This document shows positions 3,938 through 17,312 of a DNA stretch of 41,912 bases, in pieces. Origin of the DNA: Flavobacteriales bacterium. Lineage in GTDB: Bacteria > Bacteroidota > Bacteroidia > Flavobacteriales > Flavobacteriaceae. The position numbers were made by a program, and so were the translations under genes. The notes below the pieces were generated by a model. It had not been told where the DNA came from, made no database searches, and worked only from the letters and a program-made list of their open reading frames with translations. Position 1 is the stretch's first letter. Each line of letters begins with the position of its first letter. Location of the stretch: NCBI GenBank assembly GCA_024229195.1, contig JAAESS010000371.1, positions 1 through 41,912 on the forward strand, given 5' to 3'.

Positions 3938-4564
3938 TTATTTTGTTGGTTCTGCCTCAGAAATAATCTGAGGATATTTTCCTTTAGCCTCTTTAATCCT
4001 ATCCTTTAAAGTCTCATTGGTGGGATTGTTTTTTGAATCTTTCAATAGCTGTGTATATGATATTCCATATTTTTCTTCACAATATCTATTTCTAAGATCC
4101 GTATAGGCTCCTACCAATTCATTTTGAACGGCGATATAAGTCCCGTAAGAGGTTCCTCTATCACTTTCTAATGAAATAACCGCCTTATTTGGATGGTCTG
4201 ACGACAAAGGATCCTTCGCTCCCTGACACCAGTCACATTCTGCGGGCTCAGCATCATCGATCGGATTTCCAAGACCTCCACCATTGTCTATAAACTTGGT
4301 AGCTTCTTCACGAATCTGATCAATGGTCATAAATGTTTCGCCTTCAACCAAAATGTCATTGTTACGGTTTACTGTTACGACAAACACGTTTTTTTCTTTT
4401 AATTTTGGTGGATCAGGCATGTCTTCCGGCTGCTTTTCAGGTAATTTCCTGCTAATCCCGGTGTCCACATCCATCGTAGTAGTTACTAGAAAGAATATGA
4501 GCAACAAGAAAGCAATATCGGCCATTGACCCTGCATTGATTTCCGGTACATCTCTTTTTGCCAT
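3938..4564 (-). CDS. exbD: Biopolymer transport protein ExbD/TolR (first copy, long periplasmic domain)
   Basis: A 208-residue ExbD-family protein. The N-terminus MAKRDVPEINAGSMADIAF leads into the single transmembrane helix with the conserved aspartate at D16. The family usually has about 140 residues, so this copy carries a periplasmic insertion. The insertion includes a C-D-W-C motif (C110, C113) and a third cysteine in NRYCEEKYG, so a disulfide or metal site is possible. It sits 4 bases after the upstream membrane-protein gene and 6 bases before the second exbD. It probably pairs with the second ExbD as a heteromeric pair around ExbB (inference). Confidence 0.92.
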   Translation of the reverse strand: MAKRDVPEINAGSMADIAFLLLIFFLVTTTMDVDTGISRKLPEKQPEDMPDPPKLKEKNVFVVTVNRNNDILVEGETFMTIDQIREEATKFIDNGGGLGNPIDDAEPAECDWCQGAKDPLSSDHPNKAVISLESDRGTSYGTYIAVQNELVGAYTDLRNRYCEEKYGISYTQLLKDSKNNPTNETLKDRIKEAKGKYPQIISEAEPTK

Positions 4565-4568
4565 AATA

Positions 4569-5036
4569 TTATTTTGTTGATACTAATGATTTAATAAAAT
4601 CCCATATAAAGAATCCTAAGCCAACTGCTCCAAGTAGCACCGAATACCAGATACCGGTACTAACCCATTTTGAAGTGCTTCCGGCCTCACCGTCTTTAAT
4701 AATGTTCCCAGATAAATTTGTTGTTGCTTCATCTGAAGCCATCATATATGAAATTAATAGCACAACTGCTAAAGCTCCTAAGGAAACTAAGGTCTTCTTT
4801 AAAAGTTTTGGCTGTCTGATTAAATTCCAAAGAGAAAATACAACAGCAATAACTGTAGTGATGATCAAAATCACCTTCGCGAACTGCACAAAAGGAGAAA
4901 CCAGACTGTTTTGCAAATCTAAACTCTCTTTTACAGCATCATCGCCTTCCATAATTATCCTTACCAAGAAGTAGATCGCAATCAAGCCAATCAACCCTGA
5001 AACAAGTGATAATATTTTTGATACTTTACTATTCAT
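4569..5036 (-). CDS. Small integral membrane protein in the exb operon
   Basis: A 155-residue protein with about four predicted transmembrane segments (near residues 8-28, 50-68, 83-98 and 128-148) and no recognisable catalytic motif. It sits between exbB (7 bases away) and the first exbD (4 bases away), a position where Flavobacteriia regularly keep an uncharacterised membrane protein. The context suggests an accessory subunit of the ExbBD motor, but this is inference only. Confidence 0.8.
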   Translation of the reverse strand: MNSKVSKILSLVSGLIGLIAIYFLVRIIMEGDDAVKESLDLQNSLVSPFVQFAKVILIITTVIAVVFSLWNLIRQPKLLKKTLVSLGALAVVLLISYMMASDEATTNLSGNIIKDGEAGSTSKWVSTGIWYSVLLGAVGLGFFIWDFIKSLVSTK

Positions 5037-9788: not shown

Positions 9789-10276
9789 CTAGGAAGGATC
9801 GATCAAGAATAATGGCTGATCGAATTCAACAGGTGATGAATCCTCGATAAGAACCTTTACAATTTTACCTGACACTTCTGATTCAACCTCATTGAATAAC
9901 TTCATCGCCTCAATATACAAACTGTATCTCCTGCTTCAATGGTGTCACCAACTTTTACAAATACTGGTTTATCCGGAGAAGGTTTTCGATATAAAGTTCC
10001 TATAATTGGTGACTTGATCTCAATATATTTCGAAGTATCTTCAGCTCCTTTATCTTCTGTTTTCGCTGCAGGCTCGGTTGCCACCGGACTTGGTGCTGCT
10101 TCAGTTGGAACTGCAACAGGCATTGAAACAGGAGAAGTTTGCTGAAAATAATTAGTTTCATGTCTTTGCGCTCCGGTCTTGATAGTGATCTTGACATCAC
10201 CCATCTCCAATTTTACCTCATTGGCACCAGACTTGGCGACGAACTTAATTAGATTTTGAATTTCTTTTAATTCCAT
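9789..10276 (-). pseudogene. accB: Biotin carboxyl carrier protein with a one-base frameshift
   Basis: AccB carries the biotin used by acetyl-CoA carboxylase. The open frame runs 10276-9902 (124 residues): the usual N-terminal KEIQNLIKFVAKS helix, a Pro/Ala-rich linker, then the start of the biotinyl domain (SPIIGTLYRKPSPDKP). It stops in DTVCILRR, just where DTVCIIEAMK is expected. Adding one base around 9912-9916 restores IEAMK with the biotinylated lysine (residue 126). The frame then continues through [20 protein letters not shown] to a stop at 9789, giving 162 residues, the normal family length. As AccB is essential, a sequencing or assembly error is more likely than a true knockout. Confidence 0.9.
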
Positions 10277-16715: not shown

Positions 16716-17312
16716 ATGAAAGATAAAATTCTGCAGAAATCGGCTGATATGTTTTTGAATTTAGGATTCAAAAGCGTTACCATGGATGACATAGCCGCTA
16801 ACTTGGGTATGTCTAAAAAAACGATATACAGTCATTTTTCATCAAAAAAGAAACTTGTTGAAGCTTCTACATTTTTCGTGTCAGAAAAAGTAAATGAGAC
16901 CATTTGTTCCATTATTGATGCAAAATACGATCCTATTGAGGAGACCTTTACCATCAAATCAATGATCAATAATTTACTGAAAAATGAAAAATCCTCACCA
17001 TCCTATCAACTTCAAAAATATTATCCAAAGATTTTCAAACAAGTCAATGACCAACAATTTGAAGTATTAAAAAGCTGTATAGTGGAAAATTTAAAAAGAG
17101 GTATAGTTGGTGGTTATTATCGTAAAGATATTGACATCGATTTGATCACTCGATTTTATTTTAGCGGCAACATAAGCCTGACCAATCAAGATTTATTTCC
17201 TATGGATAAATATGAAATGTCTTCCTTGAAAGATACATATCTCGATTATCATATCCGGGCAATTGCCACTGAAAAAGGACTTAGAACTTTAAAAAATATT
17301 CTCAAAAAATGA
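16716..17312 (+). CDS. TetR/AcrR family repressor of the efflux operon
   Basis: A 198-residue regulator with a standard TetR N-terminal helix-turn-helix (residues 5-45: FLNLGFKSVTMDDIAANLGMSKKTIYSHF) and a divergent helical ligand-binding domain. It is the first gene of a four-gene operon, overlapping the tolC-type gene by 4 bases (ATGA). That position makes it the likely local repressor, acting at the dyad GGAAACT-N14-AGTTTCC in its own promoter. The inducer is unknown. Confidence 0.93.
   Translation: MKDKILQKSADMFLNLGFKSVTMDDIAANLGMSKKTIYSHFSSKKKLVEASTFFVSEKVNETICSIIDAKYDPIEETFTIKSMINNLLKNEKSSPSYQLQKYYPKIFKQVNDQQFEVLKSCIVENLKRGIVGGYYRKDIDIDLITRFYFSGNISLTNQDLFPMDKYEMSSLKDTYLDYHIRAIATEKGLRTLKNILKK

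Follow-up and report, generated by a model that had tools for sequence, protein, structure and literature searches.

The window, by which we mean the whole 41,912-nucleotide stretch of contig JAAESS010000371.1 that was analyzed, carries accB on the minus strand between fabH and accC. Both neighbors lie on the same strand and are intact: fabH (11293-10298) encodes a beta-ketoacyl-ACP synthase III of 331 amino acids (TIGR00747, 349.6 bits against a cut-off of 292.1), and accC (9717-8368) encodes a biotin carboxylase of 449 amino acids (TIGR00514, 699.7 bits, cut-off 626.5). ORF calls and homology place the whole of accB, with both of its reading frames, at 10276-9789. The ORF that begins at 10276 runs for 124 codons to a premature TGA stop at 9904-9902 and ends in GDTVCILRR, the final ILRR of which is out of frame. 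The remainder of the gene, 41 codons that include the IEAMK biotinylation motif, is read from 9914 in a different frame and reaches a normal TAG stop at 9791-9789. Compared with the genes of relatives, accB is one base short just before IEAMK, and a translational shift would have to fall within 9938-9905, bounded by the nearest preceding stop in the C-terminal frame and by the premature stop. As assembled, no uninterrupted frame passes through the biotinylated lysine.

The frame break is seen by homology as well. The Pfam Biotin_lipoyl domain is split into two matches in two frames, covering profile positions 35 to 73 and 2 to 37, and tblastn searches with AccB from four relatives (L040, L042, L043, and L045) each returned two pieces with the frame switch at 9908/9914. 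When the two frames are joined, the protein scores 152.1 bits against the biotin carboxyl carrier protein (BCCP) profile TIGR00531, above the cut-off of 115.2, and aligns with positions 1 to 155 of the 156 in the profile, whereas the 124-amino-acid truncated product scores 86.2 bits and falls below the cut-off. The joined protein and the placement next to accC and fabH are thus those of a BCCP gene, from which this copy differs in that its frame is broken just before IEAMK. A preliminary description of this DNA had reported an accB frameshift with one missing base before IEAMK, followed by about 40 more residues to a normal C terminus; the ORFs, Pfam matches, and tblastn alignments agree with the frameshift, and the 41 codons and TAG stop agree with the length.

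The source is a draft assembly of 415 contigs that is 90.21% complete and 7.37% contaminated. No second accB was found in it (one protein match at E values of ≤10), and the sequence around the lesion has a single exact place, even with a gap of 0 to 2 bases allowed. The assembly does contain two further biotin-dependent carboxylase-type clusters, on contigs C216 (L003) and C307 (L004), each with its own small, intact carrier protein. The carrier ORF on C216 (161 amino acids) adjoins a second biotin carboxylase, and that on C307 (139 amino acids) has two neighbors, a carboxyltransferase and a membrane protein, the latter being, as we read it, a decarboxylase subunit. With one gene of each cluster used as the query, both clusters were found to be conserved in three relatives (G004, G012, and G013). 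Neither carrier qualifies as AccB: they score 29.6 and 42.2 bits, respectively, against the BCCP cut-off of 115.2. The other genes of the pathway, described earlier as intact, are so: in addition to accC in the window, accA (433.4 bits, cut-off 319.3), accD (338.2 bits, cut-off 317.45), and birA (141.3 bits, cut-off 83.1) are found elsewhere in the assembly above their cut-offs and with no internal stop. This indicates that the pathway has been kept.

AccB was searched for in 60 genomes, including the source genome, and 55 of these gave a match. Among the 54 relatives that matched, 53 have an accB open frame of at least 160 amino acids. The exception, G021, has its accB interrupted by a contig end at base 16738 and matches as two contig-end fragments; every other relative with a match has a single accB. 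Five relatives gave no AccB match in this search (G007, G019, G044, G051, and G057). Two of them, G044 and G057, belong to the same order (family f9), are 1.7 Mb in size and 99% and 97% complete, respectively, and lack an AccB match at E values of ≤0.001. Their AccB may be divergent or absent. Comparison with close strains had been proposed earlier as a check on the frameshift, and it found accB whole, with the IEAMK motif in frame, in every one of the 29 relatives examined at this locus. A scan of the genome_contigs set, which may leave out records very near the window's own genome, matched at least 593 stretches, 589 of which encode a relative. The best 80 were kept, and in all of them accB is intact through the motif, although this sample is biased toward intact genes because the motif itself served as one of the two search patterns. 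The closest named relative among the matches listed is Aquimarina sp. strain MMG016, at 72% identity.

The 42 codons beyond the lesion, stop included, were compared with those of relatives to gauge its age. There were 15 synonymous and 0 nonsynonymous differences from the nearest relative, L010, and the same numbers were obtained with L011. The corresponding synonymous and nonsynonymous counts were 20 and 1 with L012, 22 and 1 with L013, 15 and 2 with L014, and 25 and 0 with L016. The part of accB past the lesion has been under purifying selection and was kept protein coding in its own frame until recently. Since all differences from L010 are synonymous, a real lesion, if there is one, must be very recent.

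The frequency of such breaks in this assembly was assessed by scanning for frame switches relative to the ORFs of relatives over 113,642 coding positions, comprising 30,123 in the window and 83,519 on four of the assembly's own contigs (C216 and C307 whole and most of C181 and C267), a sample of a 3.0-Mb assembly. Of eight stretches of the assembly, C237 (in part) and C33 were left out as having no matching reference stretch. Three places were flagged, namely, accB, a transporter-like gene on C216, and a false flag produced by an ORF of a relative that lies antisense to window genes at 3938-5036, which leaves two real frame switches, accB among them, in the whole comparison. In a control, the detector recovered 34 of 40 artificial single-base deletions. 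A scan with a stricter E value and without the window reported no switch, and in it the C216 gene appeared only as a partial match. That gene, at approximately 23301-23905 of C216 (L127:3301-3905), switches frame beside a run of eight T residues and lacks most of its 3′ part relative to G012 (L135), in which it is at least 560 amino acids long; its state suggests decay or misassembly. A chimeric join at the accB lesion was also considered and rejected, as identity to G014, measured in 250-base bins, does not change abruptly at that point. The accB break therefore stands alone, a point in favor of a real rare allele and against an assembly of poor quality throughout. It lies neither at a homopolymer (no run of four or more identical bases occurs in the 50 bases examined around it) nor among many similar indels. 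Those features are typical of frequent assembly errors and are not required for a single one.

Programmed -1 ribosomal frameshifting of the dnaX type served as the comparison for a break that the cell might overcome. As in that system, a -1 shift at the lesion would restore a known protein, here of normal length, and an AGGAG sequence stands about 10 bases upstream. The preliminary description had seen no slippery heptamer, and we likewise found none of the form X XXY YYZ in frame in the 124-codon ORF. The predicted RNA fold of 9925-9840 is ordinary (z score of -1.42, with 18 of 200 shuffled sequences folding equally well), and the AGGAG stretch is identical in L012, a relative without the shift. 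Conservation is lacking as well: the shift occurs in none of the 29 loci examined in relatives and in none of the best 80 genome_contigs loci. No account of accB recoding was found in the literature at the level of titles and abstract openings. It is therefore very improbable that frameshifting or any other recoding restores full-length AccB. A naturally split AccB was also weighed, in which translation would stop at the TGA at 9904-9902 and reinitiate at the ATG at 9905-9903, the Met codon of IEAMK, to give a second chain of 38 amino acids that pairs with the first. The two codons do overlap as ATGA, a layout used in translational coupling. However, the Met-Lys codons of the motif create the overlap by themselves, as ATGAA always holds TGA in that frame, so it does not point to design; the 29 relatives examined all carry the motif in frame; and the second chain would be without the Ile-Glu-Ala that precedes the Met. 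We regard this arrangement as extremely unlikely.

The main rival is a real and very recent accB null mutation in the sampled strain, with the cells living on outside fatty acids or forming a dying minority; the preliminary description had raised a real mutation only in stating what would refute its reading. The isolation of the break and its position outside a homopolymer argue for such a mutation, as does the C216 transporter-like gene, whose frame switch and 3′ loss mean that real gene decay may occur in this genome. The essentiality of AccB, which had been asserted outright, holds as a rule but is conditional, since accC and accD null mutants of Staphylococcus aureus live as fatty acid auxotrophs according to one report (PMC6102330). 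Against this reading, neither accA, accC, accD, and birA nor fabH shows decay, there is no relaxation of selection in the codons past the lesion, and the one relative with a match that lacks a long open accB frame is cut by a contig end. A null mutation is accordingly an unlikely explanation. Another is that the assembly misses an intact accB that the organism does have, either as a second gene or as a strain allele. The incompleteness of the assembly leaves room for it, but relatives with a match have one accB each apart from the contig-end pieces of G021, the locus has a single place in its own assembly, and the two other small carriers score far from the BCCP cut-off. We consider this explanation improbable.

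We conclude that the frame break is probably an error of assembly or consensus calling, or else a broken allele of a minority that entered the consensus from a mixed sample. This reading is favored by the whole accB genes in the 29 examined relatives and the best 80 loci, the absence of decay past the lesion (all 15 differences from L010 being synonymous), the kept pathway, the fragmented and partly contaminated draft, and the lack of recoding signals. Counting against it are the rarity of breaks as measured by a detector of known recovery, the position outside a homopolymer, and the absence of an identity step that would mark a chimeric join. Gene-fragmenting indel errors in draft assemblies offer a comparison (compare Kastor, PMC12007338, which concerns long-read assemblies): as in such errors, a conserved gene that relatives have whole is broken here by a single-base indel. 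The present case differs in that the break is isolated and outside a homopolymer. Among the three options put forward in the preliminary description, an assembly error fits best, a second gene copy is not present in the assembly, and recoding is without a signal. Under the favored reading, the locus would be the ordinary accB of a Flavobacteriaceae draft genome whose assembled sequence is one base short before the biotinylation motif, and the working gene in the organism would encode a normal AccB of about 162 amino acids. We infer that the prevailing accB gene of the organism is free of the lesion.

On present evidence, the case warns that a single base in a draft genome can mimic the loss of an essential gene. 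A lesion that was nonetheless real and fixed would leave the cell to make a key carrier protein by unusual translation or from two chains, or to replace it with outside fatty acids; that a fixed lesion is bridged to a working carrier, by a ribosomal shift without a heptamer or by two chains with reinitiation at the ATG, is very doubtful.
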